Source: Deltaproteobacteria bacterium
GTDB lineage: Bacteria > Desulfobacterota > DSM-4660 > Desulfatiglandales > Desulfatiglandaceae
Reading direction: 5' to 3'
Assembly (NCBI GenBank): GCA_019310785.1
Contig: JAFDDR010000014.1
Location: forward strand, 1-37,031
Length of the DNA stretch: 37,031 bases
The notes below the pieces were generated by a model. That model was not told where the DNA came from. It did no database searches and saw only the letters and a program-made list of their open reading frames with translations. Positions within the stretch are counted from its first letter, which is position 1. Each line of letters starts with the position of its first letter. A program made the position numbers and the translations under genes. Below are positions 9,521-36,887 of this stretch, one piece after another.

Positions 9521-11197
<1,677 letters not shown>

Positions 11198-11206
11198 CTA
11201 TCCTTC

Positions 11207-11473: not shown

Positions 11474-11474
11474 C

Positions 11475-11513: not shown

Positions 11514-11521
11514 GTTTTTCC

Positions 11522-13039: not shown

Positions 13040-13049
13040 ATGGTATTCG

Positions 13050-13065: not shown

Positions 13066-13075
13066 GAGATTAAAG

Positions 13076-16031: not shown

Positions 16032-16037
16032 CAGGGT

Positions 16038-16892: not shown

Positions 16893-16905
16893 AAGGAGTT
16901 TGACA

Positions 16906-17832: not shown

Positions 17833-17851
17833 AGGATGTATGGGGGGATAC

Positions 17852-19952: not shown

Positions 19953-19988
19953 TCCTAAAAAGAAATAATGGTTATACTTTAGCTCTTT

Positions 19989-20054
19989 GCAAGGGTGAGG
20001 CATTTTTCAAGGCAATATCTAAACCTGGCAACTTCACCCTTGCAGTGAAGTTGC
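19989..20054 (+). promoter_or_regulatory. Two mutually exclusive hairpins in the amidotransferase leader
   Basis: GCAAGGGTGA (19989-19998) can pair perfectly with TCACCCTTGC (20034-20043). Alternatively GCAACTTCAC (20028-20037) pairs perfectly with GTGAAGTTGC (20045-20054) around a 7-nt loop. The two 10-bp stems share bases 20034-20037, so only one can form fully. No T-run directly follows either. This is the layout of a conformational switch or attenuator, or of a nested palindromic repeat. The remaining bases of this 176-bp gap are A+T-rich with no clear promoter. Confidence 0.5.
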
Positions 20055-20128
20055 AATATTACTCAATTTTTCAAACAGCTAAAATATTACAAATAATGAA
20101 ATATTATTAAGAAAGGAAGTGGGCGATA

Positions 20129-21199
20129 ATGAAAAGGTGTGCAAGATGCGTCATGCCGGAAACATGGACTGGAATTACCTTTGATGAAAAAAGCGTATGT
20201 AATATCTGCGGGGCAAACGAGACTAAAAAAGTAAAGGTGAATTGGGGAGAAAGGCAGAAGGCCCTAAATGATATTTTGAGGAATTACAAGAAACTGGCCA
20301 AAACTACAGGTAACAAGTATGACTGCATGGTCCCCTTTAGCGGAGGCAAAGACAGTGCATACACCCTCTGGGCCGTGGTCGAAAAGTATGGTTTGACTCC
20401 GCTGGTGGTCACTTTTGATCACAGCTTTCCTCTGTCACCGGAGGCCGAATGGAACCTGATGGAAATCCCGAAACAACTGGATTGCGATCACCTGCGTTTC
20501 ACCTTGGGAAACGGCCTGCGAAATGCCCTGTGTAAAAAGGCATCAGAAGTGATGGGTGACTTCTGCTGGCATTGCCATAATGGTGTTGGCGCTCTTCCTG
20601 CAAGGATTTCCAAGCAGTGGGACATACCCCTGCAGGTCTGGGGCGAACCAACCATGGCCGAATACCAGACAGCCGGGCCTTACAGGTACGAGGATCTTGA
20701 GGAGCAGGACAAAGAACACTTTGAGAAGGTCTTCCAGGCAGGAATAACGCCGGAGATGGTGCTGCCGCGCGATTACAATATGGTTGACTTGTTGCCCATG
20801 ACATGGCCGGATGGCGAATTCACGCTTAAGGCTTTATATCTGGGCTGTTATGAACCCTGGGACCAGCGGAAACAGGTGGAGATCATCACGCGAGAACTTG
20901 GGTGGAAACACCACGAGGTGGAAGGGACTTACGTGGACTGGGACAAGATAGATTGTCCTTTTGAGCCGGTTCGGGACTGGCAGAAATTCATGAAGAGGGG
21001 TTTCGGACGCACTACTTTTCAGGCAAGCAAGGATATCAGGGGGGGATTGATGAGCCGGGAGGAAGGCATGCGTCTGGTTGAAGAGCTGGATGGAAAAAGG
21101 CCCGGAAGCCTGGACCTCTTTTTGAAAGAGATAGGAATGACAGAAAAGGAATTTGAAAGTATTACCAAAGTGCATGTTGTACCGGTATCCGAACAATAA
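20129..21199 (+). CDS. N-acetyl sugar amidotransferase (PseA/WbpG family)
   Basis: An ATP-pyrophosphatase (PP-loop) enzyme that turns an acetamido group into an acetamidino group, or otherwise adds ammonia-derived nitrogen to a sugar. The 356-residue protein begins with two CxxC pairs (C4/C7 and C24/C27), the usual N-terminal zinc-ribbon-like element of this family. The PP-loop VPFSGGKDSAYTLW follows near residue 70, and further family sequence includes FCWHCHNG and QVWGEPTMAEYQ. In Pseudomonas, WbpG works with HisH/HisF-like partners; no such partner genes are visible here, resembling PseA of Campylobacter. The ATG at 20129 is preceded by GAAAGGAAG. It starts a new block after a 176-bp gap with potential alternate hairpins and so may be separately controlled. 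Confidence 0.92.
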   Translation: MKRCARCVMPETWTGITFDEKSVCNICGANETKKVKVNWGERQKALNDILRNYKKLAKTTGNKYDCMVPFSGGKDSAYTLWAVVEKYGLTPLVVTFDHSFPLSPEAEWNLMEIPKQLDCDHLRFTLGNGLRNALCKKASEVMGDFCWHCHNGVGALPARISKQWDIPLQVWGEPTMAEYQTAGPYRYEDLEEQDKEHFEKVFQAGITPEMVLPRDYNMVDLLPMTWPDGEFTLKALYLGCYEPWDQRKQVEIITRELGWKHHEVEGTYVDWDKIDCPFEPVRDWQKFMKRGFGRTTFQASKDIRGGLMSREEGMRLVEELDGKRPGSLDLFLKEIGMTEKEFESITKVHVVPVSEQ

Positions 21200-21220
21200 T
21201 ACTCATGAGTGAGACACATT

Positions 21221-21775
21221 ATGAACCATATGCGACCCCGACGCTTCATTGAGGGAAACCGTATATATTTGCGAGAAGTTCGTCTCTCGGATGCGAATGG
21301 AAAATATTATCGCTGGATGAATGATCCTGAAATAGTCCGGTATGTGGAAAGCCGATTTGACCCGAAATCAGTAGAAATGCTGCAGTCGTATATCAGGCGG
21401 GAAGAAGAGAACAAGGCTAATGTTTTTATGGCCATTATTGACAAAAATAACGACGAACATATCGGGAATATCAAAATCCACGGCATCGATCATATCCATC
21501 GCCATGCCCAGGTTTCTCTTATTATCGGAGAAAAGGACTATTGGGGCAAGGGATACGGTAGTGAAGCCATTAATCTGGTGGTTGATTTTGCTTTTAATAC
21601 CTTGAACCTTTACAGGCTTTTTGCCGGCATTTACGCCTCCAATGTAGGATCAATTAAGGCATTCAAAAAAGCAAATTTCTTCGAAGAGGGCGTAAGAAAA
21701 GAACACCGTTTTTGTAATGGAAACTACGTTGATGAAGTGGAGATGGCAATTATCAGAGCCCCACACAAAAATTGA
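21221..21775 (+). CDS. GNAT N-acetyltransferase (PseH/RimJ-like)
   Basis: An acetyl-CoA-dependent N-acetyltransferase of 184 residues. Motif A, which binds the CoA pyrophosphate, reads SLIIGEKDYWGKGYGSEA; the following NLYRLFAGIYASNVGSIKAF and KANFFEEGVRKEHRF are typical of the RimJ/RimL-like branch that includes PseH and other sugar acetyltransferases. In this setting it most likely acetylates an amino group of the flagellar sugar or its precursor. Start is uncertain: ATG 21221 has a GAG-rich stretch at 21207-21213; GTG 21209 and ATG 21230 are also in frame. Its stop codon lies inside the hairpin that begins at 21771. Confidence 0.9.
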   Translation: MNHMRPRRFIEGNRIYLREVRLSDANGKYYRWMNDPEIVRYVESRFDPKSVEMLQSYIRREEENKANVFMAIIDKNNDEHIGNIKIHGIDHIHRHAQVSLIIGEKDYWGKGYGSEAINLVVDFAFNTLNLYRLFAGIYASNVGSIKAFKKANFFEEGVRKEHRFCNGNYVDEVEMAIIRAPHKN

Positions 21776-21813
21776 TGGACTCGGAAAAAGTCCATCAATC
21801 CCGCATAGCGGGA
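21771..21813. repeat. Palindromic element / terminator-like hairpins after the GNAT gene
   Basis: An 11-bp perfect stem ATTGATGGACT/AGTCCATCAAT with loop CGGAAAA covers 21771-21799 and includes the stop codon. It is followed by TCCCGC-ATA-GCGGGA (21799-21813). The left arm is nearly the same as that of the element at 22761, marking both as copies of one dispersed repeat family. It may also stabilise or end the upstream transcript. Confidence 0.65.
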
Positions 21814-21874
21814 GGGTAGGGGTTGTCATAATTAAAAATGCAAATTTGTCGAAAGTGAGGAAGTCTTAATCGAA

Positions 21875-22711
21875 ATGAATGATACCATTGAATATCGTTT
21901 TAGTGCAGGCAGGAAAAAATATGTCATCAAAAAATCCGATAAGCTGCTCCGACGGACATACAATATGAATACATTCCGCGGGCATCCCTGGATGACATAT
22001 TCAGGCACCGATAGAATAGAAGGAGACGGTATCATTAAGCCGGCATTATATTCACAGGCCGACAGTCTTGGACGCCAATATCTTTTTTCCATAGGCCCCT
22101 GGTGGGTAGATGCAAACCATTCTCACCCCGGGTATGGGTATTTGTCACTTGTTTTTATTGCAGTTCTGCGGCCGGATCAGATGCAGGAAATGGCTTTTAA
22201 TCCCAGCCTCTGTTATCCAACTATGCGCAGCATGAAAATTAGCGGGAAAATTCGAGGGCACAATGTTGAGTTGAAGAGTGCCGATCTTGTTTTCTGGTTT
22301 CAGTGCTATTCTGACAAAATTGGCAAAAAAGTCAATTATGCTCTTATTGGTCAGACACTTAACGATAAACTTATTAATGGAAAGATTAATGACTTTGAAT
22401 TGAATATAGATGTATCAGCCGCTGACCACTGGATTTGCCTTGGGAGTTGTATAGAAAAGAGTTATATGTATGGAGATTTACCCATAGAAGATCTCGATAT
22501 AGACAAGCCCATCAATATGGGCTTCATTTTAATACCACTGGATGTCAAGCCGATCTGGCCTGAAGAATTAAATGTTGTATCACCAATGAACCTCGGTTTA
22601 GACTCAATGTGGCCTGTAGATACAACCTTATTGCCTACTGGAGCAATTGCACTTTATGAATTGGAGATTGATTATTACTCAAGTTACCAGTTGCTGTTAG
22701 ACAGATCATAG
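21875..22711 (+). CDS. Unknown protein in the flagellin sugar cluster
   Basis: A 278-residue protein I cannot assign. It has no signal peptide and no transmembrane segment. It reads as mostly beta-strand with many aromatic residues (SIGPWWVDANHSHPGYGYLSL, LVFWFQCYS, LELEIDYYSS-like ends). Cysteines are few. DHWICLGSCIEKSYMYGDLP and PIWPEELNVVSPMNLGLDSMWP are the most distinctive segments. The aromatic-rich beta character would suit a carbohydrate-binding or jelly-roll fold, but that is a guess. It lies between the GNAT gene and the tandem glycosyltransferase gene, on the same strand, bordered on both sides by palindromic repeats. The ribosome site is poor (AGGAAG about 15 bases before the ATG), so the start is uncertain. 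Confidence 0.75.
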   Translation: MNDTIEYRFSAGRKKYVIKKSDKLLRRTYNMNTFRGHPWMTYSGTDRIEGDGIIKPALYSQADSLGRQYLFSIGPWWVDANHSHPGYGYLSLVFIAVLRPDQMQEMAFNPSLCYPTMRSMKISGKIRGHNVELKSADLVFWFQCYSDKIGKKVNYALIGQTLNDKLINGKINDFELNIDVSAADHWICLGSCIEKSYMYGDLPIEDLDIDKPINMGFILIPLDVKPIWPEELNVVSPMNLGLDSMWPVDTTLLPTGAIALYELEIDYYSSYQLLLDRS

Positions 22712-22833: not shown

Positions 22834-25269
22834 ATGATACTTATGAAACCAAAAATTAGTACATATATCATCTGCAATGGCAATGAAACCGATCTTCAAA
22901 CATATTTAGCCGGCATAAGAGAATTCGGGGATGAGATTATTGTGGTAAACGGATGCCTGCAACATAACCTGCCAGGCCCTGATAAAATTGGGGAACCTTC
23001 CTTTTTATCTATCGCAGATACCCCGAATCCCGCTGAGGCCCTCACACATGCGGTTAAAAAGGCCAATGGGAACTGGATACTATTCTTAAGGGCCGGCGAA
23101 ATTGACTCGAAGCAAGACTATCAGAAAATATTTAAGTTATGCAAAAATAATGGCATCCAGGCTTATCAATTTATCTGTCAGACCATTCTGAAAGGCGAAG
23201 AACTTAGCAAATATGAATGGCTGGGCAACTTTGGAAAGTTTTCACGGACCAAAGTTACCAACAGTGGATACATACCCACAATTGAAATCAGACTTTTTCA
23301 AAAGGACGTGTTCAGGAAAGTCTTAGCAGTTGATAATGACATTCTTCAACTTGATTTTGATGATAAGACAACTGTTAGCACCAATAGTCAGATTCGATTT
23401 ATTCCAACTAAAACTGATCTAAAACACCAGCAAAGGCCCGATGAAAATGAGAAATGGGCAAAAGACAGACAGCAATTCTTTAAGGATGATGAGAGCATTT
23501 CCGATCAGCCTATCGGTTTTGAATTAATCGGTCCCGGAAATATAGGCTATTCCTTAATTTCAGAAAAAGACCTGCCTTCCCTTGAAGCCGGTCTTGATAT
23601 GAGATTCGGCAGAATTGAAATACTTAAATGGGCCGTACACAACCTCATTGAAAATTGCTCTTATAATAAGGCGATAACTTTTGCAGATAAGATTCTTCTA
23701 CACTTTTCAGACAGTTATGAAATCTGGCATCTTAAAGGAATTGCCTTCTTTCACAAGTTAGACTTGGCAAATGCTGAAAAATGTATCCATAGGGCGCTGG
23801 AATTTAAACCGGACGATGAAACCATTTTGTCGGATCTTGTTCGCGTCAATATAGCTTCCGGAAATTTGTCCGAGGCCAATTCCATTTTGGAAAAGGTGAA
23901 GGACCTATACGGACTCTCGACTGAAAACAAATACATACACGATTGTATTAAACAAAACAGAGGCAGGCAGGCAAAAGTCTCTCTATTAATCATGTGCAGG
24001 GATGAAGAAAAATATATTGGTAGAGCACTAAAAAGCGTAAAAAATATTGTTGATGAAATTGTGGCGGTTGATACAGGGTCAAAAGATAACACCTTAGGTA
24101 TTCTAAAACAAAATGGTGCAAAAATTGTACATCATATTTGGAAAGACGATTTTTCGGAAGCCAGGAATACCGGGCTTTTTCATGCAACAGGTGACTATGT
24201 ATTTTGTATGGATGCTGACGAGTATCTTGAGGATAAGGCCATACTCTCCTTTTTGATATTTAAAAACTTACTCCCGCTGAAGAAAATATCGGGAGTTGTT
24301 TTCGAAATTCAAACCCTAAACGACTCTTATGATATGGCTGTAAAAGGGTTACCCCCAACAAAAGTTATCAGACGGACGGCCCTTTTTCCAAATCTCCCGG
24401 GAGTACGGTTTAATGGTAAAATTTTCGAGACCGTCGAATCATCACTTGAAGCATTGAATGTCCCGATTATTTTTGCTGAAAGCATCTCCATCAAGCACCA
24501 CAACAACGATAATGCCCAGCGGAGAAGACGCAAAATACCTGCAATGGCCAAAAGCGCTGCAGATTTTGGTCCTGAAGGACTGTTTCGCGGGGTTCAATTC
24601 TGGCTTAATATGGATGATGTCAATCAGGCCATGGAATGGTTTGAACGGGCTATTGTAAAGGCCAACGGAAAACGGCGTTATCTGAATACAATTTGTCAGT
24701 TGTTTGACAACTTCAAGCAGGATAGACTCATACAACCCGGCGCACAAATCTTCAAGGAGCTTATGGTCCGTTATGGTACTTCCTATCGTATCACATCTTT
24801 TTGTGCCGATTATCTTTATGAACTCAAAGAGTACGACGCGGCATATAAACTGTTTAAGCGTTTGGTCGGCACGGAAAGTTATCAATATACTGATAAGCCC
24901 CAAAAATCGGATATCCAAAGAAACAGGCTGAATTTTGCAATGACATGTCTTGAATTGGATGACAATAAGGCCTGTGATAAAATGGTGTCGGTGATGTCTG
25001 ATGACATCGAAATGGTTGATACGGCAAGAGCCGTGGTTTTTTATTCAGAAATCAGGAAAAATGAACTGGAAAAGGCTATTGATATTTTAGATCAATGGAT
25101 AAGGGAAAGAAACATTCCTATCCGGGATACCATTAACAACTTTACCGAGTTCCTCCAAATAATTATTAAATTTTCCGAAACCTTATTAAGCTATGGTCTT
25201 ATGGATGAAGGAAAAGTCATGATACGCGCGGCAGAATCTTTTGCTTTAATTCTAAAAGGATCAATTTAA
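22834..25269 (+). CDS. Tandem GT2 glycosyltransferase with TPR-like repeats
   Basis: An 811-residue protein with two glycosyltransferase family-2-like GT-A regions. The first (about 1-200) has the outline of the fold, but the site of the DxD metal motif reads LFLRAGE, so it looks inactive. A TPR-like stretch follows (about 265-370, with WHLKGIAFFHKLDLANAEKC). The second GT2 region starts at about 388, with LLIMCRDEEKYIGRALKSV, AVDTGSKDNT and FCMDADEYLED carrying an intact DxD near 459-461. The C-terminal 230 residues are helical repeats. TPR-GT2 proteins of this kind occur in flagellin and surface-sugar loci, where they may recognise protein substrates. The next gene follows the stop with no gap. 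ATG 22834 or ATG 22843 is the start. Confidence 0.88.
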   Translation: MILMKPKISTYIICNGNETDLQTYLAGIREFGDEIIVVNGCLQHNLPGPDKIGEPSFLSIADTPNPAEALTHAVKKANGNWILFLRAGEIDSKQDYQKIFKLCKNNGIQAYQFICQTILKGEELSKYEWLGNFGKFSRTKVTNSGYIPTIEIRLFQKDVFRKVLAVDNDILQLDFDDKTTVSTNSQIRFIPTKTDLKHQQRPDENEKWAKDRQQFFKDDESISDQPIGFELIGPGNIGYSLISEKDLPSLEAGLDMRFGRIEILKWAVHNLIENCSYNKAITFADKILLHFSDSYEIWHLKGIAFFHKLDLANAEKCIHRALEFKPDDETILSDLVRVNIASGNLSEANSILEKVKDLYGLSTENKYIHDCIKQNRGRQAKVSLLIMCRDEEKYIGRALKSVKNIVDEIVAVDTGSKDNTLGILKQNGAKIVHHIWKDDFSEARNTGLFHATGDYVFCMDADEYLEDKAILSFLIFKNLLPLKKISGVVFEIQTLNDSYDMAVKGLPPTKVIRRTALFPNLPGVRFNGKIFETVESSLEALNVPIIFAESISIKHHNNDNAQRRRRKIPAMAKSAADFGPEGLFRGVQFWLNMDDVNQAMEWFERAIVKANGKRRYLNTICQLFDNFKQDRLIQPGAQIFKELMVRYGTSYRITSFCADYLYELKEYDAAYKLFKRLVGTESYQYTDKPQKSDIQRNRLNFAMTCLELDDNKACDKMVSVMSDDIEMVDTARAVVFYSEIRKNELEKAIDILDQWIRERNIPIRDTINNFTEFLQIIIKFSETLLSYGLMDEGKVMIRAAESFALILKGSI

Positions 25270-27204
25270 ATGATGCATGCTGAAAAACATACAGGCAAAA
25301 CGAGCATATTAAAAAATAATTTGGATGCCTTAGAAAACTGGTATCCTGAACTATATAAGAGACTTGTGGAACTGCCTGAGGAAATACCCGATTATATTGT
25401 AAGGACAGGAGAAAAAAGTTCCTTCCTGAATGTTTTGTTCAGAGGTCCGGATAAAAATACGCTCTATTATGACAATGATGATCCGATTGGCTATTCACAT
25501 CGTTATATTAAGTCTCTTGATCTGAATTATGCCCCTTTCCTTGTATTTTTAGGCTTTGGCCTTGGGTACCATATTGTAACCACACTCAACGGTTTTTCAA
25601 AAAGCCATCAAATAAGACATATCGTTATTGTTGAAAAGGATATTGAGTTATTCAAGGCAGCGTTAAGAATATTTGATTTCAGCCAGGTGATAATGCATCC
25701 CGACATCGAACTTATAATAGGTTATCAACATCAGGACCTATTTGTTGCCTTTAGAAGCTATTTCGCAAATAACCCGCAAGTTCTGGAGTATTCGAGAAAT
25801 TTAAAATTTATTATCATGCCCGCTCTCCATCGTTCGGAAAATGAATACTATGGAAATGCCTATCAAATTTTCAAAAATGCCATGATCCACGTTTTCGACT
25901 ATATTGGTAACGACCCTTACGATTCCCTTATCGGACTATACCAGACAATTTCAAACCTTCATCCAATGATTCAAGACCCCGGTATTATTACTTTTAAAAA
26001 CTGTTTCCAGGGTAAACCCGCCATTGTTATCGGCGCAGGTCCGTCTTTAAACAAAAACATTCACTTTTTAAAAAAAGCAAGCCACAAAGCGATCCTCATA
26101 TCTGTGGATGCGGCCTTAAGGCCCCTTCTCGATGTCGGCATCAGACCTCACGTTGTGACAAATATTGAAAGGACCAAAGGACAGGATTTATTTTTTTCAA
26201 ATCTGGAAGGGGTTGAAGATACTTTTTTTGTATTTTCTCCAGTGGTCCCACCTGAAACCTATGATGCATTCAAAGGGCCCAAGATATTAGCTCACCGCTA
26301 TGAAGAAATTATGCAGTGGTTAGACATACCAAAAGGGGCGCTTGAAGGTGGCCCACTTGTCGGAAACTTTGCCTTTAACATTGCACAATATCTGGGCTGT
26401 TGTCCAATTATTCTTGCCGGCCAGGACCTTTCATTTAAACTTACCGGAGCAACACATGTAAAAGGCAACGTATTTGGTCACATAGATGAATACAAGAATG
26501 ATACGCTCGAGGTTGAGGGGAATTATAATGAAACCCTTCTTACTACCAGATCTTTTGATGAAGGGAGAAAGCGTTTAGAGCTTCAGGTGCAAGAATTTGA
26601 CGGCCTGGTTATTAACGCCACTGAAGGGGGCGCCAAGATAAGGGGGACACTTTTTTTGGGTTTGAGAAACGCCATCGATAATTACTGTAAAACGGATTTT
26701 AATCCATTGTGTGATCTGAAAAGGATTTGGGCAGCAGAAAAGGCCGAACAGAAGGACACAAAGAGCGAACTCAAAAGGATAGACGCCATAATAGAGGAGT
26801 CTCTTTCTGAGTTGGACTCCGCAACAGTTGACTGTAGACACAGCATCGAAATGATAGAATCGGTACTAAATCAGAATCAATTATTGATAGATGACAAACC
26901 AAACCCTAAAGTCGTTCAGGTAATTAGATCTGTCAGCAGGGAGCTTAATAAAACCCGGAAGAATATTATTTCATTACCGTCATTCGTTACTTTTGAAATG
27001 GTAATCCAAAGCTATCATTTCGACCTTGAGATTCGACGAAATTTTACACGTGAACAGTACTCTCATCCTGATTTTGCAGAATTAAAATCTTTCTTACTTA
27101 TGAAAGAATGGTTCGCCACAGTAGGCCAGCTTATCCTGTCTACTTATTATGCAATCAGGCGGGAAAAGGCCATATTGCAGGGGAAAGCATTACCATTTAA
27201 ATAG
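25270..27204 (+). CDS. Maf-type flagellin glycosyltransferase (DUF115/MptE-like)
   Basis: Motility accessory factors transfer nonulosonic acids from their CMP forms to serine or threonine of flagellin before export. The 644-residue product has the DUF115 core at about 250-420: AIVIGAGPSLNKNI, LISVDAALRPLLDVGIRPH, TNIERTKG, ALEGGPLVGNFAF and LAGQDLSF followed by THVKG. These are the most conserved segments of the family. The N-terminal 240 residues include LGFGLGYHI and IVEKDIELF, another Rossmann-like unit usual in Maf proteins; the C-terminus is helical. The ATG directly follows the stop of the upstream glycosyltransferase gene, indicating translational coupling. With NeuB- and SpsF-like genes upstream and flagellin downstream, the inferred job is O-glycosylation of the flagellin at 29661. 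Confidence 0.93.
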   Translation: MMHAEKHTGKTSILKNNLDALENWYPELYKRLVELPEEIPDYIVRTGEKSSFLNVLFRGPDKNTLYYDNDDPIGYSHRYIKSLDLNYAPFLVFLGFGLGYHIVTTLNGFSKSHQIRHIVIVEKDIELFKAALRIFDFSQVIMHPDIELIIGYQHQDLFVAFRSYFANNPQVLEYSRNLKFIIMPALHRSENEYYGNAYQIFKNAMIHVFDYIGNDPYDSLIGLYQTISNLHPMIQDPGIITFKNCFQGKPAIVIGAGPSLNKNIHFLKKASHKAILISVDAALRPLLDVGIRPHVVTNIERTKGQDLFFSNLEGVEDTFFVFSPVVPPETYDAFKGPKILAHRYEEIMQWLDIPKGALEGGPLVGNFAFNIAQYLGCCPIILAGQDLSFKLTGATHVKGNVFGHIDEYKNDTLEVEGNYNETLLTTRSFDEGRKRLELQVQEFDGLVINATEGGAKIRGTLFLGLRNAIDNYCKTDFNPLCDLKRIWAAEKAEQKDTKSELKRIDAIIEESLSELDSATVDCRHSIEMIESVLNQNQLLIDDKPNPKVVQVIRSVSRELNKTRKNIISLPSFVTFEMVIQSYHFDLEIRRNFTREQYSHPDFAELKSFLLMKEWFATVGQLILSTYYAIRREKAILQGKALPFK

Positions 27205-27321: not shown

Positions 27322-27419
27322 TCTATCCGGAAATTGGTTGTTTCTGGATGGACACTAAATGGTCCCTTAATTGAGACAAAGGGATATTAGGCTAAGTTTC
27401 TTTTATGGAGAATCAAGAT

Positions 27420-28415
27420 ATGATAGTTAATCGTTCCATTGGCACGCGCAATAACTATGGTGACCTTACGGCCCTGTTTAAATATATCTCGATACTGGAA
27501 TCACAAAAAGAGCATGAAAAGTCCAGAGATATATTGAACGATTTACTCCATATTGTAAGAGGGATCGAGTCCGTAACCCCTGAGAAAAGTTCTGGGCTTT
27601 GTACTACCTATCGATTAATCGCTGACAATCACATGGAGGTGGGCGAGGTATCCGAGGCCGCCAGATTATGTCGCGAAGGCCTTCAGTTATGCCCCGGATA
27701 CGGTGAATTGCTCCTCAGTTATAGTAATTGCCTGACTCGGTTACATCAGTTTGAGGCGTCTGAAAACATTCTGGATCAAATTGACGAAAAAAGCGTAACT
27801 GCTACTCATAAAGCTACAAATTCCGGCCTATGTACATACCGTAAAAGCACCGCTCTGGGACAACTTTACCAGGATTGGGGCAAGATTGAGCTGGCCCGGC
27901 AACACTTCACTAAGGCCCTACAATCCCGTGGCGATTGGATCCCGGCTCACGTTGGCTTAATCGAGTCAGAAATCATAGAAACAAATTTGGCAAAAGCAGG
28001 GCAATACATGGCTATGATCATGCAAAAACACGGTCCTGACCACGCGTTGAAGCTTACCGCGGCTAACCTGGCCCTTATAACATCAAACTTCGCTGAGGCG
28101 GATGACCTTGCAGCACGTCTTCAAGGAAACCTGTTAGGCGATGACCGTTTTGAGTACCTGCTCTTTCAGCTTGATTTTTTTAAGGGGGACCATGAATCTC
28201 TTTCACATGTGCCATACCTGATGACAGGAGAAAGTGCCGAGACAGAAGCAGCGCGCGTCTGGGTAATGGAATTTAAAGGCAAATCATATCAAGAGGATCT
28301 GTCCAGAATACCGGAAGATGTATGGCGGGAAGAATACCAGGCACTTGACCGTGCCTGGCAAGATATCGAATCACAATTCAAACCATGTGTTGATTCCAAA
28401 AGAGACGGATTATGA
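27420..28415 (+). CDS. TPR-repeat protein coupled to the radical SAM gene
   Basis: A cytoplasmic helical-repeat protein, 331 residues from ATG 27420 (GGAG nine bases upstream; ATG 27405 is in frame but has no ribosome site). TPR-like helix pairs can be seen: YRLIADNHMEVGEVSEAARL, YSNCLTRLHQFEASENIL, LGQLYQDWGKIELARQHFTKAL and LALITSNFAEADDLAARL. No enzymatic motif is visible. The stop overlaps the start of the radical SAM gene by ATGA, so the two proteins are probably made in fixed ratio and may act together, with the TPR part as a substrate or chaperone-binding module (inference). It follows the Maf gene after a 215-bp gap that contains an inverted repeat. Confidence 0.85.
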   Translation: MIVNRSIGTRNNYGDLTALFKYISILESQKEHEKSRDILNDLLHIVRGIESVTPEKSSGLCTTYRLIADNHMEVGEVSEAARLCREGLQLCPGYGELLLSYSNCLTRLHQFEASENILDQIDEKSVTATHKATNSGLCTYRKSTALGQLYQDWGKIELARQHFTKALQSRGDWIPAHVGLIESEIIETNLAKAGQYMAMIMQKHGPDHALKLTAANLALITSNFAEADDLAARLQGNLLGDDRFEYLLFQLDFFKGDHESLSHVPYLMTGESAETEAARVWVMEFKGKSYQEDLSRIPEDVWREEYQALDRAWQDIESQFKPCVDSKRDGL

Positions 28416-29395
28416 AAACAGAACATCGAGTGACTCAAGGGGAAAAGACATTCAGACTTATAATTACGGAGGACTGCAATGCAAATTGTCCCCATTGCTT
28501 CAATGCCAACATGAGATTGGGTAAACATATGCCGATGGATATCTTTTATAAAGCCCTGTCATGCGCCGATGCCCCCTCAATTAAGATTATGGGTGGTGAG
28601 CCCACCCTGCATCCAAATCTTCTGGAAATCATAGATTCCTGTCATGAAGCGGTACCGGTTTTGAGGGTATTTACCAATGGACTAAAAAAAGAGGTGCTCG
28701 ACAAGGCAGCCTGGCATCCCAGCGATACGGTCACGTTCAACTTTTACGTGGCAAACAAGAACCTGACAAATCAGAACTATCTGTGGGACAAGGATATCAG
28801 CCGTACATTCCATGTGGTTGTGAACACTAAGACAGACTTTGTTCGACTCTTCAACAAACTGAGAAACCTGGCAGCACTGCTGAAAAAGCAGCCCGTTGCA
28901 GTACAGGAACGTTCAGGAATTGCATTGAGCCTTGACACCCAGGAAAACATCTTTATCTATAAAGAGAGATTGCAGCAGGTTATGTTTAATATTGTTAGAA
29001 GACTGAGGTTGTGGGGTTTTAGGCATATTTCGCGCGACCATCAGATCCCTGAATGTTTTTGGATCCATGAAGATGTCAGAGAATACCTTAACAAACACCT
29101 CAAAAACAATCACATTACCGCCTGTCTCTCTCCGAATTGCGCCTCCTGGATAGGGATCGATGGAACCATAAGACACTGTAATCAGTTTCCTGTTTACTGT
29201 GGGAAACTTTCCGATGCTTCAACACCTGCTACCATTGATTCTTTGTATGCAAAAGCGAAAGACGTCAAACTCGATCTTCTAAAGAAAGACCATGATTGCA
29301 TGAACTGCATACATCTTGAGACATGCCTGGGAGGGTGCTTTAAGGCATATCACCTGGATGGACAGATCAGCCTGCACAGGCTGAAATGTGCATGA
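28412..29395 (+). CDS. Radical SAM/SPASM-domain enzyme next to flagellin
   Basis: A 327-residue radical SAM protein. The [4Fe-4S] motif is C22-x3-C26-x2-C29 (CNANCPHC), and the SAM-binding GGEPT lies at about 66-70. The C-terminus holds a complete SPASM pattern for auxiliary clusters: Cys-x-Gly-x-Asp-Gly-x4-Cys (CASWIGIDGTIRHC), then CMNCIHLETCLGGC, which is Cx2Cx5Cx3C, then a final Cys two residues from the end. SPASM enzymes mostly modify peptides or proteins (PqqE, AlbA, anSME and similar). Lying between a TPR gene that overlaps it by 4 bp and the flagellin promoter, it is a strong candidate for modifying flagellin or a flagellar protein, but this is inference; sugar-modifying members also exist. 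Confidence 0.9.
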   Translation: MKTEHRVTQGEKTFRLIITEDCNANCPHCFNANMRLGKHMPMDIFYKALSCADAPSIKIMGGEPTLHPNLLEIIDSCHEAVPVLRVFTNGLKKEVLDKAAWHPSDTVTFNFYVANKNLTNQNYLWDKDISRTFHVVVNTKTDFVRLFNKLRNLAALLKKQPVAVQERSGIALSLDTQENIFIYKERLQQVMFNIVRRLRLWGFRHISRDHQIPECFWIHEDVREYLNKHLKNNHITACLSPNCASWIGIDGTIRHCNQFPVYCGKLSDASTPATIDSLYAKAKDVKLDLLKKDHDCMNCIHLETCLGGCFKAYHLDGQISLHRLKCA

Positions 29396-29457: not shown

Positions 29458-29485
29458 TAAAGTAATCCGCCCCTCTTTCCGATAA
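29458..29485 (+). promoter_or_regulatory. Sigma-28 promoter of flagellin
   Basis: TAAAG (29458-29462), 15 bases, TCCGATAA (29478-29485), close to the enterobacterial TAAA-N15-GCCGATAA rule with one extra base of spacing. The transcript would start near 29495 and give a leader of about 165 nt. The same arrangement and exact spacing recur upstream of fliD at 32724. Confidence 0.82.
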
Positions 29486-29563: not shown

Positions 29564-29652
29564 GCAGCGGGTTTAAACGCTGCATAACTACCAAGGCAAA
29601 AACCTTAAATCTATTTGGCAAGGATGCCAATAAAACAAAAAATTCAAGGAGG
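29564..29652 (+). promoter_or_regulatory. Structured flagellin leader with two CsrA-like sites
   Basis: Three small hairpins precede the gene: GCAGCG/CGCTGC (29564-29583), AAGG/CCTT around 29593-29606, and TTGGCA/TGCCAA (29615-29630). The third has AGGA in its loop, the A(N)GGA-in-hairpin signature of a CsrA site. A second GGA lies in the AAGGAGG ribosome site (29646-29652), 26 nt away. The pair resembles the hag leader of Bacillus subtilis, where CsrA blocks translation. Confidence 0.5.
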
Positions 29653-29660
29653 ATTAAATT

Positions 29661-30767
29661 ATGGGATTAAGAATTCAACACAATATTGCTGCAATGAATG
29701 CCCATCGGCAACTGGGAATAGCGGATGCCGGCATGAACAAATCTCTTGAAAGGCTGTCATCCGGTTATCGTATTAACAAGGCTGCGGATGATGCCGCCGG
29801 TCTGGCCGTTTCCTCGGGCATGCGTGCTGACATTGCCAGTTTCAAGGTGGCTTCCAGAAACACTTCCGAGGCCATGGCTCTTCTCCAGACCGCTGAGGGG
29901 GCCTACGATCAGATCTCAAACATACTTATTCGACTGAAAGAGTTAGCCACACAGGGAACCTCGGCCAATGCCTCGCAAAATACGTCTGACATCCAGAATG
30001 AGGTCACAGCGCTCTTAAGTGAGGTTGACCGTATCGCCAATGCAACAGAATACAATGGAGAGGCAGTGCTTCGAGGATACGGGACCGAGGTGAACGCTTA
30101 TAGTGATGGGCTCGATACCACGGCAGAGCGTGCGGCAATCGGCTTGACGAGTGTCAGCACGAGCGGCGTTACCGACAACGTCACCTACACGTTCACGGCC
30201 ACTACGGCGGGCGTATTGACGGTGACAAACGGTACAACAAGCCAGTCAGAATCTCACACTCTTACTGCCGACGGATCCCAGACGGTTAATTTCTCATCGA
30301 TCGGCATTTCGTTGAGCCTGGGCCCGAATTATCTCAGGACCGCTGCCAGCATGAACGCCCAGACCATGATCTTCACCGCATCGGGAGGGAAATTTATCAC
30401 CGGGATAAAGAACGACTCTAACCACTATATCAATGTAACCATTGACAAGATTTCTCAGTCAGATCTGAGCATCAGCGGTGTCACGGGTACGGCAATTGCG
30501 GATTTGGATACCATTAACACCGCAATCGATACCCTGGCAACAAGCCGAGCCGAAATAGGCGCTTTCATGAACCGGCTGGGTTATGCGGCTGCCAACCTTT
30601 CGACGATCATTGAAAACGTGCAGGCAGCAGAGTCCGTGATCCGGGATGTGGACATGGCGCAGGAGATGACCACATTCACAAAGAACCAGATCCTGCTCCA
30701 GGCTGGTACTGCCATGCTTGCCCAGGCCAATATGGCCCCGCAGCAGGTATTGTCCCTGTTCGGATAA
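29661..30767 (+). CDS. fliC: Flagellin
   Basis: The filament subunit, 368 residues. The N-terminal D0/D1 region (about 1-140) starts MGLRIQHNIAAMNAHRQL and includes LERLSSGYRINKAADDAAGLA. The C-terminal region (about 277-368) ends NQILLQAGTAMLAQANMAPQ then QVLSLFG, as in other flagellins. The central 130 residues are variable and rich in Ser/Thr (for example TYTFTATTAGVLTVTNGTTS), offering many possible O-glycosylation sites for the Maf protein encoded upstream. AGGAGG lies eight bases before the ATG. It has its own sigma-28 promoter (29458) and probable translational control in the leader. Only one flagellin gene is present in the window. There is no signal peptide, as expected for type III export. 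Confidence 0.97.
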   Translation: MGLRIQHNIAAMNAHRQLGIADAGMNKSLERLSSGYRINKAADDAAGLAVSSGMRADIASFKVASRNTSEAMALLQTAEGAYDQISNILIRLKELATQGTSANASQNTSDIQNEVTALLSEVDRIANATEYNGEAVLRGYGTEVNAYSDGLDTTAERAAIGLTSVSTSGVTDNVTYTFTATTAGVLTVTNGTTSQSESHTLTADGSQTVNFSSIGISLSLGPNYLRTAASMNAQTMIFTASGGKFITGIKNDSNHYINVTIDKISQSDLSISGVTGTAIADLDTINTAIDTLATSRAEIGAFMNRLGYAAANLSTIIENVQAAESVIRDVDMAQEMTTFTKNQILLQAGTAMLAQANMAPQQVLSLFG

Positions 30768-30997: not shown

Positions 30998-31070
30998 CAG
31001 GTTCAACGTTTAAGGTTCAAGGTTCAAAGGTTCAAAGGTTGTAACCCCTGAACCTTGAACCGTGAACCTG
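30998..31070. repeat. GGTTCA-rich inverted repeat, left of the AbiE pair
   Basis: Direct copies of GGTTCA(A)AGG on the left are mirrored by CCTTGAACC/GTGAACCTG on the right, giving an imperfect palindrome that begins CAGGTTCA and ends TGAACCTG. The same word family forms the element at 32560-32671 on the other side of the AbiE genes. Confidence 0.75.
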
Positions 31071-31082
31071 GCAACTTGAGTT

Positions 31083-31649
31083 TCAATAAATCAAGAGAGA
31101 ACGGGAGACAGACGGAGGATATTTCTTAGCCATTTTTAAAAGGAGTTTGAAGTCAACCCTATCCATTTCCAACTCATCTTGAGCCGGAATTATTCCCCGG
31201 TAATAGAGGGTATCAAGAATGGCTTTTTCAGGTGAAGCCATATAAAACCTATCCACATAGGCAAATCCGGAAAAGAGAGCGGGGGAAATCCTTGAGAATT
31301 CAATGGTGCTCCCTTGATATTGAATATTTCGTTTTTTGCCGACGGATGTACTTAAAGTTACCACCGTACACACCACAGGAGACTGCAGGCTGATGCCATG
31401 ATAATTCAAGGCCCATTCACAGGAAATGTAAGCCGGCGGCTTTAAGAAACACGCTACCTCTTCTACGCCAGGGAATCCATAAAGAAAGGAGTTGATATAG
31501 TTTCCCCGATTAATACGATGGATCAGTCCTTTTTTAACTGCCCGCGATAAAAACATACCTGGATGAGGAGCCACCTTTTCTGCATCCTGTTTGCGGAAAA
31601 GCCCTGGAAGGAGTTTTAAGCGTTTAAGCGTTGATTTTTCTTCTTTCAT
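31083..31649 (-). CDS. abiEi: AbiEi-type antitoxin / transcriptional regulator
   Basis: Antitoxin of a type IV toxin-antitoxin or abortive-infection pair, 188 residues. The N-terminal part (LPGLFRKQDAEKVAPHPGMFLSRAVKKGLIHRINRGNY) is the winged-helix DNA-binding region of AbiEi. Then comes ISCEWALNYHGISLQSP, a conserved family segment, followed by VDRFYMASPEKAILDTLYY, as in the AbiEi C-terminal domain. In the known AbiE system the antitoxin neutralises the toxin without stable contact and represses its own operon. ATG 31649 is chosen (the frame extends to a TTG at 31658). It overlaps the toxin gene by 26 bp and is the downstream gene, opposite to the usual antitoxin-first order. Both genes run against the surrounding flagellar genes. 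Confidence 0.85.
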   Translation of the reverse strand: MKEEKSTLKRLKLLPGLFRKQDAEKVAPHPGMFLSRAVKKGLIHRINRGNYINSFLYGFPGVEEVACFLKPPAYISCEWALNYHGISLQSPVVCTVVTLSTSVGKKRNIQYQGSTIEFSRISPALFSGFAYVDRFYMASPEKAILDTLYYRGIIPAQDELEMDRVDFKLLLKMAKKYPPSVSRSLLIY

Positions 31650-32520
31650 GATCTTCAAGATATTTTTTCATACCCTGGCTCAGAAGGTCTGAAGTAACCT
31701 CCTTAAGTGTGGTGATGAACTCTTTAAAATCCTCTTCTTGATAAAGGCTGAGGATATTTTGCGGTAAAAAGCGGGGCAGATCTCTTCTTAGTGCGTCTAT
31801 AATGCTTGAGGCGGATCTCCTTTGTTGAAAATAATCCGCTCCTCTGGTCGGGACAAAAAAGGCCTGATACATTACAAGTTTTTCCATGACCTTGATCAAA
31901 TTTGGACGGACCTTCAGTTGTTTGTTTATCCACCAGATGTCATAGATATCCCTCCCTTTGAGGTATTTTCTTTCATAAAGGGCTCTTATTTTATCAGACA
32001 GGATCTCCTCCGGGGTTTCTGCTAAAATGATACTGCTCGAGTATGGGATTATCAGTTTTCCGCTGGTAACCAGTCCTGAAATTAGCGGCAAATCCCTCAA
32101 GATAAATTTTCGAGATTCTGGTTTGTGGCCGGGCGCTAAAAATTCGAACTCTAATTTTACGGCAATTCTTTCACGTTGATTTTGAGGACGATATATAAAA
32201 AACATCTTAAATGCTTGTTTTCGTCCACGCTTACGCTTATGTTCGGATTGTCCGGGGCCAAACTGGGCGATACAGGCCATTTGGGTCTTCTGAAATATCC
32301 CTGCTAAGATATTTTCCACATCTACTTTAGGCAAGTCGGTTACAAAATCGAGATCTTCTGAAAATCTCATTCCGCCATAGACCCATCTTAAGGCTGTTCC
32401 GCCCTGGAAGATGATACTGTCTGATCCTGATTGAGCGTAAAGGTTGTTCAGGAGGATCAACTGTAACAATTCCGATTTTTTGATCTTTTTTTCATTATAC
32501 ATGATTACGTTATCATACAT
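31624..32520 (-). CDS. abiEii: AbiEii/AbiGii-family nucleotidyltransferase toxin
   Basis: A nucleotidyltransferase-like toxin of 298 residues. The hallmark motif FQGGTALRWVYGGMRFSEDLDF (about residues 38-59) contains the GG-T/S loop and the two metal-binding aspartates of the DUF1814 family. Downstream, AVKLEFEF and TPEEILSDKIRALYERKYLKGRDIYDIWW match the conserved lysine and aspartate region. AbiEii proteins bind GTP and stop growth, and related MenT toxins add nucleotides to tRNA; which applies here is unknown. Start ATG 32520 or 32502: a near-palindrome lies between the two codons, and a TATACT (32534-32529, minus) could be its -10 box. All key residues look intact, so the pair is probably functional. 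Confidence 0.88.
   Translation of the reverse strand: MYDNVIMYNEKKIKKSELLQLILLNNLYAQSGSDSIIFQGGTALRWVYGGMRFSEDLDFVTDLPKVDVENILAGIFQKTQMACIAQFGPGQSEHKRKRGRKQAFKMFFIYRPQNQRERIAVKLEFEFLAPGHKPESRKFILRDLPLISGLVTSGKLIIPYSSSIILAETPEEILSDKIRALYERKYLKGRDIYDIWWINKQLKVRPNLIKVMEKLVMYQAFFVPTRGADYFQQRRSASSIIDALRRDLPRFLPQNILSLYQEEDFKEFITTLKEVTSDLLSQGMKKYLEDHERRKINA
32501..32516. promoter_or_regulatory. Near-palindromic operator candidate at the AbiE start
   Basis: ATGATTACGTTATCAT reads the same on both strands except at one symmetric pair (14 of 16 positions). It lies over the 5' end of the toxin gene, just downstream of a possible -10 box. AbiEi proteins repress their own operons by binding inverted repeats in the promoter region, so this is a reasonable operator candidate. 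Confidence 0.4.
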
Positions 32521-32671: not shown

Positions 32672-32723
32672 ATATATAAAATGGCAAACATCTTGCTATC
32701 TATATTACCAGCCATGAAAATCC

Positions 32724-32751: not shown

Positions 32752-32858
32752 TTATGTAAAGATTGGGCAGGATTTTCCGGTTTTGCCTTTATTGAGCGGC
32801 GCAGCCGCGTTTCATAAAATTGCGAAGCAATTTTATTTTTCTTAGTAAGGATCATAAC

Positions 32859-35800
32859 ATGTCAATGAGCACGAACCTTGTAGCAGGCCTTTCAAGCGGT
32901 TTTGACTGGCGAACCATGATCGACCAGTTGATTGCAGTGGAACATCGCCGTGTTGATCTGGTTGAAGACAGAAAGAAGGACTATGAAACAGAGCTCTCGG
33001 AATGGCAGACCTTCAACACCAGCCTCCTGGCGCTAAAGACGGCCGCAGAAGGACTGAAGGATCCAGCCGATTTTTACCTTTATACCCCAAGCATGACGAC
33101 TAATGCCTCTAATGTTGATGGAGAGGATATCCTTACTGTCTCCACAGGTTCAGACGCTGCTCCGGGGACATACACGATCAAGGTGACGAATCTGGCAACC
33201 GCGCAAAAGCTTTCTTCCAACCCTTTTACCAGTCAAACAGCAGAACTTGGAAGTTCATATGCCGGCGATATCATTATGAACGGCAATGTGGTCACCATTA
33301 ATGCCACTGATTCTTTAGCCGATGTGGCCTACAGTATAAATAACGCTAACGCGGGTACTGATCCAAGCGGTGTGACAGCAAGCATTGTCAATTACGGTAC
33401 CAACGATTACCGGCTCATCCTGACCAGCGATACCACAGGTGAAGAAGGCATAAGCCTGCTGAATGGATCATCGACAAACCTGGTACAGAAGTTCGGGTGG
33501 AAAGACAACCAGGCTGCTCAAGTGAAAAATTCAATAACAGGTGGTGCCCAAGGCGATGGTTTTACAGCCCCCAATGTGGCCGTCAAAACACTTCTCGGGT
33601 TAGCCGCCGGGGAAGCTTCCACCGGCACTCTAACAATAGGTGGCACGGCGGTGACGATCAATCTTTCTACCATGTCTCTGACTGATATTAAAACTGCCAT
33701 TAATGACGCTGCCATCAGCGGGGTTAACGCATCCGTTATTTCACAGACTGTAGATGGGAACACTTATTACCGCCTCCAGATTGACGGAACTCAAACATTT
33801 GTTGATGAAAAAAATATCCTGAACACATTAGGCATTCTTGACCACAACAGTGCTGATGTTATAGGCAAAAGTTCCTGCAATTCCATGACCACGGAAGGCG
33901 CATATATAACATCTACTACGCTTCTTAAGGATATTGACGGTTACAATACCTTTACGGCAGGCGGCAGTCCGGGTGGTGACTATATTACATTAAGCGGCAC
34001 CGATACTGCGGGAGGAGCTGTTGGACCGGTTGATTTTGACATCTCGTCTTCAACCACGGTACAGGGGTTACTGGATGAAATTGAGACTCACCATGGAAAT
34101 GTAATCGCCTATGTCACATCTGACGGCAAGATACGGGTGGATGATCTGTCAGGTGGTTCCAGCCTGGTTGTAAACCTTGCTGACCATATCCATGATGCCA
34201 ATTCTTCCCTCGAATTTGTGGAACTCGACGGCAACTTCGAGACTGCTTCCACAAGGCAGAGGGAGATCTCTGAAGGCGGCGATGCCGCAGTTGAGATAGA
34301 TGGCGTGGAGGTTACCGGTTCCACAAACATCTTTGAAGATGTGATCGCCGGGGTCACCCTTAATCTTGCCGGCGAGGATGATACGACAATAGTTAGTTTA
34401 AAGGTCGAAAGGGACATTAATACAATCAAGTCAAATATTTCCGATTTTGTGGGAAAATATAACGGGATGATGACTTACATAAATGCCCAATTTGCCTATG
34501 ATGAGGCTGCAGAGGAGACAGGGGGTCCCCTTTTCGGGGATAGTACGCTCCGTTCGGTCAAGTCTGATTTCACCTCCCTGATTACCCAGAGCATCTGGGG
34601 TGTGGAAAGCGGTTTTTCTTCCTTAGGCCTGGTCGGGATTAATATGGGTAGTGATCTGATATTGAGCGTTGATGACAGTATTTTGACCGGGTATCTCCAG
34701 ACCAACTTCAATGATGTCAAATCCCTGTTTGTCGGGCAGGGGACCGCATCGAACAGCAATGTGAGTTATGTAGGACATTCAAGGGATTCAGAGGCAGGCG
34801 AATATGACGTTCACATCAATAGGGCGGCCACACGTGGATCACAAACCGGCAATGTGAATCTTTCCGCAGGAGGCGCAGACGAAACTCTTATTATAACACA
34901 GGGAAATAGTACCGCAGAGATTACGATTACAAACGGCATGAACCTTGACGATATTACTAATGAAATCAATGCGGAACTGGATGCGGAATATGCACAGCTA
35001 CTCGTTGGCAATGAGCAACTCTACTCTGACAACACTCAGACTTCCAAAATCACGTCCGAGACCACTTGGAGCAGCGTCTATGATGATGGTGGGACTTCGG
35101 CGGGTCTTCAAAATAATGATGTCATCACATTTACAGGGACCTCTCCAAGCGGAAGTGCCGTCTCGGGAAGCTACACGATCAGCGATATAACCACAGATAC
35201 AATCCAGGGCTTTCTTTCAGCCATAGCAGACGCATTTTCAAGTGATGTAACCGTCGCCATTAATACCGACGGAAAGATCGTTTTGACAGACAAGTATGTA
35301 GGTAACAGCCACCTCAGCCTTGAGGTAACCGAGCCGCCAGGCAGGGACCTCGATTTCGGCACAGTTCTCACCTCAAACACAGGAGGGCAGGAAGGCCGTT
35401 CCGCCATGTCCATCACCGCCACCGGTGATGGCAATAACCTGGTGCTCAGAAGCAATAATTACGGCAGCACAAGTTTTGCTATCTCCCAGGATGCTTCTGA
35501 TAATAACTACGATCATATCCTATATAGCACAACCGGCAATACCACGGATTCGTCCAGCGGCACGGTTTACATCACAAACTCGACGACATGGAACGATGTT
35601 TACGGGGCTAATGTTGCAACTAATGACACCATAACCATATCCGGAAAAGCACGTAATGGAACGACAGATATCAGTGGCACATATACCATCAACAATCTTA
35701 CCTCCGATTCTTTAGATGGATTATTAACGGCCATTGAAAATGCCTTCAGCAATCAGGGCACCACGGTTGACGCCTTTATCATGGATGGCAGGATTTATGT

Positions 35801-36362
35801 AGAGGATACTACTACCGGAAGTTCATCTATCTCCCTGACCCTGACCACCAATAATGAGGGCGGGGGTAGTTTAGCGGTTGGGGCATTTGATCAAACCACG
35901 GAAAGGGACCTGGACCTGGGCTTGATCAATATCACTGTTACCGGCCTGGACGTAGCCGGCACCATTGGCGGGGAATCTGCCGGCGGCTCAGGCCGGTTAT
36001 TAACATGTGACGATGACAATGTAAACACGGACGGACTGGCGGTAAGTTATACAGGGTCTTCTAATAGCTATGATGCTGGCACGGTTAAACTAACCCTTGG
36101 AGTGGCAGAGATGTTTGAGCGAACCCTTTTCGGCATAACCGACTTGTACGATGGCTACCTCGCCTTCAAGCAGGATTCAATTCAAGGCAGAATAAATGAC
36201 CTTGATGACCAGGTCGAACAGATGGAGGATCGTCTTGATCGTAGGATGGAGATGATGATCAACCGGTTTGTGGCCATGGAATTGGCATTGAGTAAGATTC
36301 AAAACCAGAGCGATTGGCTTGCAGGTCAGATAAATGCCTCATTCGGCGGGTGGGGATTGTAG
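32859..36362 (+). CDS. fliD: Flagellar filament cap protein FliD (unusually large)
   Basis: The cap that folds and inserts flagellin at the filament tip; 1167 residues, whereas typical FliD proteins are about 450-700. The N-terminal D0/D1 region reads LVAGLSSGFDWRTMIDQL followed by a coiled coil (VEHRRVDLVEDRKKDYETEL). The C-terminal D0/D1 region is another coiled coil (INDLDDQVEQMEDRLDRR) ending AMELALSKIQNQSDWL. Between them are FliD and flagellin 'IN'-type segments and a Ser/Thr/Gly/Asp-rich insertion of hundreds of residues with three related repeats of about 95 residues (351-442, 728-825, 902-996). ATG 32859 has TAAGGA seven bases upstream; an upstream TTG at 32820 lies in a hairpin. Sigma-28 promoter at 32724. 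Confidence 0.95.
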   Translation: MSMSTNLVAGLSSGFDWRTMIDQLIAVEHRRVDLVEDRKKDYETELSEWQTFNTSLLALKTAAEGLKDPADFYLYTPSMTTNASNVDGEDILTVSTGSDAAPGTYTIKVTNLATAQKLSSNPFTSQTAELGSSYAGDIIMNGNVVTINATDSLADVAYSINNANAGTDPSGVTASIVNYGTNDYRLILTSDTTGEEGISLLNGSSTNLVQKFGWKDNQAAQVKNSITGGAQGDGFTAPNVAVKTLLGLAAGEASTGTLTIGGTAVTINLSTMSLTDIKTAINDAAISGVNASVISQTVDGNTYYRLQIDGTQTFVDEKNILNTLGILDHNSADVIGKSSCNSMTTEGAYITSTTLLKDIDGYNTFTAGGSPGGDYITLSGTDTAGGAVGPVDFDISSSTTVQGLLDEIETHHGNVIAYVTSDGKIRVDDLSGGSSLVVNLADHIHDANSSLEFVELDGNFETASTRQREISEGGDAAVEIDGVEVTGSTNIFEDVIAGVTLNLAGEDDTTIVSLKVERDINTIKSNISDFVGKYNGMMTYINAQFAYDEAAEETGGPLFGDSTLRSVKSDFTSLITQSIWGVESGFSSLGLVGINMGSDLILSVDDSILTGYLQTNFNDVKSLFVGQGTASNSNVSYVGHSRDSEAGEYDVHINRAATRGSQTGNVNLSAGGADETLIITQGNSTAEITITNGMNLDDITNEINAELDAEYAQLLVGNEQLYSDNTQTSKITSETTWSSVYDDGGTSAGLQNNDVITFTGTSPSGSAVSGSYTISDITTDTIQGFLSAIADAFSSDVTVAINTDGKIVLTDKYVGNSHLSLEVTEPPGRDLDFGTVLTSNTGGQEGRSAMSITATGDGNNLVLRSNNYGSTSFAISQDASDNNYDHILYSTTGNTTDSSSGTVYITNSTTWNDVYGANVATNDTITISGKARNGTTDISGTYTINNLTSDSLDGLLTAIENAFSNQGTTVDAFIMDGRIYVEDTTTGSSSISLTLTTNNEGGGSLAVGAFDQTTERDLDLGLINITVTGLDVAGTIGGESAGGSGRLLTCDDDNVNTDGLAVSYTGSSNSYDAGTVKLTLGVAEMFERTLFGITDLYDGYLAFKQDSIQGRINDLDDQVEQMEDRLDRRMEMMINRFVAMELALSKIQNQSDWLAGQINASFGGWGL
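33909..35846 (+). repeat. Three diverged internal repeats within fliD
   Basis: Copies at 33909-34184, 35040-35333 and 35562-35846 (92, 98 and 95 codons). Each has the order: a start like T-S/N-x-TTxxxVY, then ITxSGT, a linker with SGxYTI, then TxxxxGLLxAIExxF, then V-A-x-xxDGKI-x-V-x-D, then a hydrophobic strand (SLxLxx). Copies two and three are the closest to each other. They add extra outer domains to the cap protein. Confidence 0.75.
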
Positions 36363-36479: not shown

Positions 36480-36887
36480 ATGTACAGTAATGGATTCCAG
36501 TCTTATCGAAAAACAAATGTTATTACGGCAGACCCAAAAAGATTGGTTTTAATGTGCTACGAGGATGTTGATAAAGACTATGAAGGGAAAGCTACTGTTA
36601 TTAAAAAGGCGCAGGATATTATCAATGAACTTATGTGTTCGCTTGACTTTGAAAAAGGCGGCTCTATCGCCGGAAATCTGGAATCCCTCTATAATTACAT
36701 GACAAGAAGAATCATCTATGCGGACGTAAATAGGGATGTAGGCGCTATTGACGAGGTCATTGGAATGTTCAATGAGCTAAAATCCGCCTGGGAGGAGGCA
36801 TTTTACGGGCAGGCTAAGGAGACTGGACTGGAAACCATGGGATTTGATGAGGGATCAAGAGAGGTTGCAAATTGTGTAAGTGTATAA
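36480..36887 (+). CDS. fliS: Flagellin export chaperone FliS
   Basis: A small, all-helical cytoplasmic chaperone that binds the C-terminus of flagellin and prevents premature polymerisation; 135 residues, the usual size. It begins MYSNGFQSYRKTNVITADPK with the family segment RLVLMCYEDV, then LMCSLDFEKGGSIAGNLESLYNYMTRRIIYADV, the flagellin-binding helices. A strong AAGGAGG lies 11 bases before the ATG. It follows fliD on the same strand, as in most flagellar loci. The C-terminal 20 residues (GFDEGSREVANCVSV) are not conserved. Confidence 0.95.
   Translation: MYSNGFQSYRKTNVITADPKRLVLMCYEDVDKDYEGKATVIKKAQDIINELMCSLDFEKGGSIAGNLESLYNYMTRRIIYADVNRDVGAIDEVIGMFNELKSAWEEAFYGQAKETGLETMGFDEGSREVANCVSV

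Follow-up and report, generated by a model that had tools for sequence, protein, structure and literature searches.

A pair of genes, coding for a TPR protein and a radical SAM/SPASM enzyme, was identified directly before the flagellin gene of an uncultured bacterium. In the only two other genomes in which the pair was found, it lies beside a flagellin of the same subtype. The two proteins probably introduce a so far undescribed chemical change into flagellin before export, a function inferred from sequence alone, to which we assign a probability of about 0.58. The earlier note on this DNA, which had described the two genes, their motifs, their overlap and the flagellin gene behind them, was correct in its observation. 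Its interpretation, a second modification system acting alongside Maf on flagellin, FliD or another exported protein, was only partly supported.

Gene arrangement and sequence motifs

The window, i.e. the whole stretch of 37,031 nucleotides that was analysed, contains a flagellin-modification island with the following features.

13050-13065 (+): sigma54-like promoter before the sugar island (TGGCATAGTGCTTGCA)
13209-22711 (+): nonulosonic-acid-type sugar island (DegT/PseC-like, MNIO-like TIM barrel, SDR, NeuB, formyltransferase, cytidylyltransferase, class III aminotransferase, WbuX, GNAT, unknown)
22834-25269 (+): TPR-containing GT2 glycosyltransferase (TPR-GT2; Glycos_transf_2 4e-25 plus TPR)
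25270-27204 (+): Maf-type flagellin glycosyltransferase (MptE-like 4e-41, Maf_flag10_N 4e-12)
27405-28415 (+): TPR protein of 336 aa (331 aa if it starts at 27420), proposed flagellin-binding adaptor
28412-29395 (+): radical SAM/SPASM enzyme (rSAM) of 327 aa
28475-28498 (+): CNANCPHC, the CX3CX2C motif that binds the SAM [4Fe-4S] cluster (aa 22-29)
28589-28615 (+): MGGEPTLHP motif (aa 60-68)
29123-29389 (+): SPASM region, C238 to C326, ligands for two auxiliary [4Fe-4S] clusters
29458-29485 (+): sigma28-like promoter of fliC (TAAA-N16-tCCGATAA, 1 mismatch)
29606-29633 (+): second sigma28-like match before fliC (1 mismatch)
29661-30767 (+): flagellin FliC of 368 aa, proposed substrate (Flagellin_N 4e-36, Flagellin_C 2e-25)
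31083-32520 (-): AbiEi/AbiEii-like toxin-antitoxin pair (AbiEii 8.6e-26; AbiEi_4 weak)
32682-32697 (+): sigma54-like promoter before fliD
32820-36362 (+): FliD (FliD_N and FliD_C)
36480-36887 (+): FliS (PF02561 1.5e-30)

Both open reading frames of the pair were present. The start of the TPR gene given in the earlier note, 27420, is the second in-frame ATG and has the better ribosome-binding site (GGAG about nine bases upstream). The two genes overlap by ATGA, but this overlap is not a trait of the family, as the gap is 67 bp in one orthologue and 4 bp in the other. The TPR protein matched TPR_19 at 4e-9, and its AlphaFold model (pLDDT 73.9) is an all-helical superhelix with the TPR domain of O-GlcNAc transferase as the best PDB fold match.

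The enzyme belongs to the radical SAM superfamily according to Pfam (Radical_SAM, PF04055, 3.3e-8; 34.3 bits against a cut-off of 29.5). The cysteines C22, C26 and C29 and the MGGEPTLHP motif are invariant in a five-row alignment of homologues. The eight SPASM cysteines C238, C243, C256, C296, C299, C305, C309 and C326 have the spacing CX4CX12C - CX2CX5CX3C - X16 - C, and C238-X12-G251-X4-C256 conforms to the SPASM pattern CX9-15GX4C. Of these, C243, C256, C296, C299, C305 and C309 are invariant in the five homologues, and C238 is kept with a one-residue shift. Although the cysteine set is complete, the NCBIfam SPASM domain TIGR04085 matched at 4.3e-5 with 23.9 bits, just under its cut-off of 27. 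A profile built from the five homologues aligned aa 241-320 with anaerobic sulfatase-maturating enzyme (anSME; 4k36/4k37, about 2.5e-5). None of the named NCBIfam radical SAM families (W_rSAM, HxsC, geopeptide, PapB, GeoRSP, MoaA) reached its cut-off; the best score was 38.6 bits against a cut-off of 380. The structure model of the enzyme (pLDDT 74.8, pTM 0.79), made from five sequences and with poorly modelled cluster-binding loops, shows alternating strands and helices matching radical SAM structures. The best PDB fold match was SkfB (6efn), followed by AbmM, viperin and BlsE, but the TM-scores were only 0.4-0.5, so the fold search does not decide the substrate.

The flagellin gene begins 265 bp behind the enzyme gene and has its own sigma28-like promoters. 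The gene order was therefore as described in the earlier note, but the pair is probably not in the transcription unit of fliC. The sigma28-like site at 29458 is among the few conserved DNA blocks between rSAM and fliC, and equivalent sites occur before fliC in both orthologous loci, where the second site at 29606 was not found. No sigma28-like site was found before the TPR gene. Scans for sigma70 promoters and terminators around the pair gave no more than chance. To judge from consensus matches alone, the pair is probably read together with the island, inside the flagellar hierarchy.

Some other parts of the window were also conspicuous. The TIM-barrel protein of the sugar island (14470-15252, +) has weak similarity to MNIO (DUF692) RiPP enzymes (PF05114 5.9e-15; ApyH 1e-15, far under cut-off), and it may be either an iron enzyme in flagellar sugar synthesis or a sugar isomerase. 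A protein of 278 aa without Pfam or NCBIfam match is encoded at 21875-22711 (+) in the island, and a 64% identical orthologue lies in the same place in the orthologous locus L063 (see below). Imperfect inverted and direct repeats of AGGTTCAA lie at 30999-31076 downstream of fliC, next to the AbiE-like pair. An ORF of 1567 aa without any Pfam match occupies 4794-9497 (+), between an ABC transporter gene and phosphoglucose isomerase.

Orthologues and their neighbourhood

Searches with the single enzyme sequence returned no relative from collections of genome contigs, viral contigs and plasmids, from 60 relatives and then the whole order of 85 genomes that makes up the class of the bacterium, or from 395 genomes of the phylum, whose hits matched only the CX3CX2C-GGEP stretch. 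One locus with a longer match (L008) contains an rSAM of a polysaccharide cluster. A second scan, of 84,980 species, was steered to the motifs by masking the rest of the sequence. It found two orthologues with 67% identity over the whole length, L063 (RPRI01000035.1, labelled Desulfobacteraceae) and L064 (DYJH01000095.1, labelled Desulfonema limicola). It also found two full-length distant homologues at 30-32% identity, L065 (an archaeal metagenome bin labelled Nanoarchaeota) and L066 (a rumen bin labelled Bacteroidales). As the scan requires an exact NCPHCFN or IMGGEPTL, members without either are missed, and these numbers do not establish rarity in other phyla.

The earlier note had proposed that the link would fail if homologues lay mostly in loci without flagellin genes. 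Both close orthologues lie directly before a flagellin of the same subtype, in the order TPR-GT2 - Maf - TPR - rSAM - FliC, which supports a link to flagellin. L063 carries almost the whole island in the same order (DegT 74%, MNIO-like 61%, SDR 68%, NeuB 70%, formyltransferase 79%, cytidylyltransferase 65%, aminotransferase 79%, WbuX 41%, GNAT 63%, TPR-GT2 48%, Maf 61%, TPR 49%, rSAM 67% and FliC 79% identity; sugar set in L063/L131), followed by FliD (50%) and FliS (50%). Its fliC and fliD are neighbours without the AbiE-like pair. A perfect sigma54-like match precedes the same island in the contig of L063, and an equivalent site precedes its fliD. L064 has other sugar genes (epimerase, acetyltransferase, WbqC-like, formyltransferase, PIG-L deacetylase and a NeuB at 41%) but keeps TPR-GT2 (53%), Maf (61%), TPR (49%; 48% for both orthologues in a separate comparison), rSAM (67%) and FliC (81% over the first 156 residues). 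The rest of its FliC is probably on another contig (L130) and is 72% identical; however, the two pieces differ at two of about seven overlapping residues, so two fliC copies are possible. The pair thus follows flagellin and Maf rather than one sugar pathway.

The distant homologues showed no such linkage. L065 and L066 had no flagellin, Maf or TPR match, so only a subclade of the enzyme is linked to flagellin. In L066, three consecutive radical SAM/SPASM-like ORFs lie at 9000-11261 (the third is cut off), the middle one being 31% identical to the enzyme of the window. In locus L071 (Gastranaerophilales) FliC-like and radical SAM genes lie about 6 kb apart on opposite strands, which was judged coincidental.

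Co-occurrence with the flagellin subtype

The class of the bacterium consists of one order of 85 genomes, while L063 and L064 lie in an order of more than 390 genomes; the two groups are different classes. In that other order the rSAM was found in only two of 390 genomes, this FliC subtype (at least 70% identity) in two of 381, and the TPR in two of 341, in each case exactly the same two genomes. The next best FliC were 53-56% identical. In the own class the rSAM was found in no genome other than that of the window, and the TPR only in that genome among 61 (none in 60 relatives). Other FliC of the own class were at most 60% identical, and none of 27 loci examined there had an rSAM-like ORF.

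FliD behaved differently. The FliD of the window is 70% identical to that of the rSAM-less loci L039 (same family) and L134, but only 47-50% identical to that of L063 and L130. FliC, TPR and rSAM thus form the unit that stays together, and FliD, which the earlier note had considered as a target, is an unlikely one. FliC and FliD of the window have different histories, as if a flagellin cassette had been exchanged next to a resident fliD.

Between the orthologues synonymous sites are saturated, while dN of the rSAM is about 0.23 and every motif is kept. The frames are therefore not chance, and the linkage is old and under purifying selection. Only three genomes are concerned, two of them closely related in order, and all are draft metagenome assemblies. 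Although contamination cannot be excluded, the same gene order in three independent assemblies makes an artefact unlikely.

In relatives of the own order for which fliC loci were examined, the gene just before fliC usually codes for TPR plus GT2, and in locus L042 it codes for a lone TPR protein. The pair therefore occupies a place where TPR-enzyme combinations acting on flagellin are expected.

Proposed function

The best explanation is that the pair is a flagellin-maturation unit. In this view the TPR protein would bind newly made flagellin in the cytoplasm, as the TPR domain of FlmG does in Caulobacter (PMC7591256), and present it to the enzyme. The CX3CX2C cluster would cleave SAM to a 5'-deoxyadenosyl radical, which would take a hydrogen atom from a flagellin residue, and the two SPASM clusters would take up or relay the electron, so that the residue is oxidised, epimerised or cross-linked before export. 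Maf and TPR-GT2 would glycosylate the same flagellin independently. The motifs, the gene order, the co-inheritance with this FliC subtype and the purifying selection were shown by sequence, whereas flagellin as the substrate, the TPR protein as a flagellin-binding adaptor (by analogy to FlmG, not homology) and the class of chemistry are inferred. A wider reading, in which the TPR-guided enzyme installs such a C-H-activated modification as a second kind of flagellin maturation next to Maf glycosylation, and in which enzyme, adaptor and flagellin subtype move between bacterial classes as one cassette, is about as likely as not.

The rSAM-associated flagellins contain no Cys and no Trp, which argues against Cys-thioether links, Cys-to-formylglycine conversion and Trp cross-links on FliC. 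Forty-six alignment columns are particular to these flagellins. Y147, R157, H255, N258 and K263 were found only in them, and Y256 is shared with one other; these residues are the places to look first for a modification, but with so few sequences they may simply reflect shared ancestry. No ORF of 15 aa or more is conserved between rSAM and fliC in the three loci that could be a separate peptide substrate, although this does not exclude unlinked precursors.

If this reading is true, flagellin, one of the most abundant exported bacterial proteins, would be a substrate of a SPASM radical enzyme, and TPR modules would be a shared adaptor on which glycosyltransferases and radical enzymes can be swapped. 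It would give anaerobic bacteria a way to change filament chemistry beyond glycosylation and methylation, and the question of how modifying enzymes pick flagellin would become testable with three genes.

ALTERNATIVES

The strongest rival, although unlikely, is that the enzyme oxidises, epimerises or decarboxylates the nonulosonic acid of the flagellar glycan or its precursor, with the TPR protein only holding the glycosylation complex together. The pair lies at the end of a sugar island next to Maf, radical SAM sugar enzymes exist, and one of them, BlsE, was among the fold matches. The co-occurrence does not distinguish the two kinds of target, as Maf and a NeuB gene are present in all three loci. 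In addition, a Clostridia flagellar glycan island (L113) has two unrelated radical SAM genes (9989-11515 and 12957-14180) among several glycosyltransferases and FkbM-like methyltransferases. On the other hand, the pair is downstream of Maf and apart from the sugar genes, and a full two-cluster SPASM domain with a TPR partner is more usual for peptide or protein substrates. The retention of the pair when the sugar set is exchanged in L064 also speaks against a sugar target, but does not exclude an action on a feature common to both sugars.

It is less likely still that the enzyme modifies another protein, such as FliD, Maf, TPR-GT2 or an unlinked peptide, and lies beside flagellin for reasons of co-expression. 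SPASM enzymes often act on small peptides, and the distant homologues in L065 and L066 have no flagellin. However, no conserved small ORF was found next to the pair, the FliD type does not track it, and FliC is the most conserved gene of the block (79-81%). That the pair has no part in flagellar modification and was merely carried along in a horizontally exchanged island is very unlikely: the block does occur across two classes with FliC much closer than in true relatives, as expected of such an island, but saturated synonymous sites show that the order has outlived a long time, while the upstream sugar genes were lost or replaced in L064.

Comparison with known systems

The surroundings of the pair are those of a Maf-type flagellin glycosylation locus, with Maf next to NeuB, PseC-like and cytidylyltransferase genes, FliC, FliD and FliS. 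The radical SAM genes of the Clostridia island L113 also share a locus with fliC and TPR-GT2, but they are not orthologous (the match is limited to aa 12-83), lie 8-10 kb from fliC and have no TPR partner next to them. The RiPP radical SAM/SPASM maturases (SkfB, PapB, geopeptide and similar) share the overall fold and motifs, but no precursor-peptide gene or RRE partner was seen here. The anSME shares the SPASM cysteine pattern and has a protein substrate; only the SPASM stretch matches, anSME has no TPR partner, and its substrate motif CxPxR is not applicable to a FliC without Cys.

Literature searches for a radical SAM/SPASM enzyme acting on flagellin gave, among open-licence papers, nothing beyond FliB, the flagellin lysine methyltransferase of Salmonella (PMC8598068). 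FliB works on flagellin in the cytoplasm with SAM and an essential oxygen-sensitive [4Fe-4S] cluster, and a radical mechanism was suggested by its authors. The statement in the earlier note that a flagellin-modifying radical SAM enzyme of this type is not part of the known glycosylation machinery must be qualified accordingly. FliB differs from the present enzyme in having CX4CX3CC (related to PF03692), neither CX3CX2C nor SPASM, and no TPR partner, and it methylates lysine. The TPR-glycosyltransferase FlmG of Caulobacter has a TPR part that binds flagellin and hands it to a modifying enzyme, as is proposed here by analogy, and relatives of the present bacterium carry TPR-GT2 fusions in the very same slot. 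FlmG, however, is one protein with a GT-B domain, while here TPR and enzyme are encoded by separate genes and the enzyme is radical SAM/SPASM instead of a glycosyltransferase.
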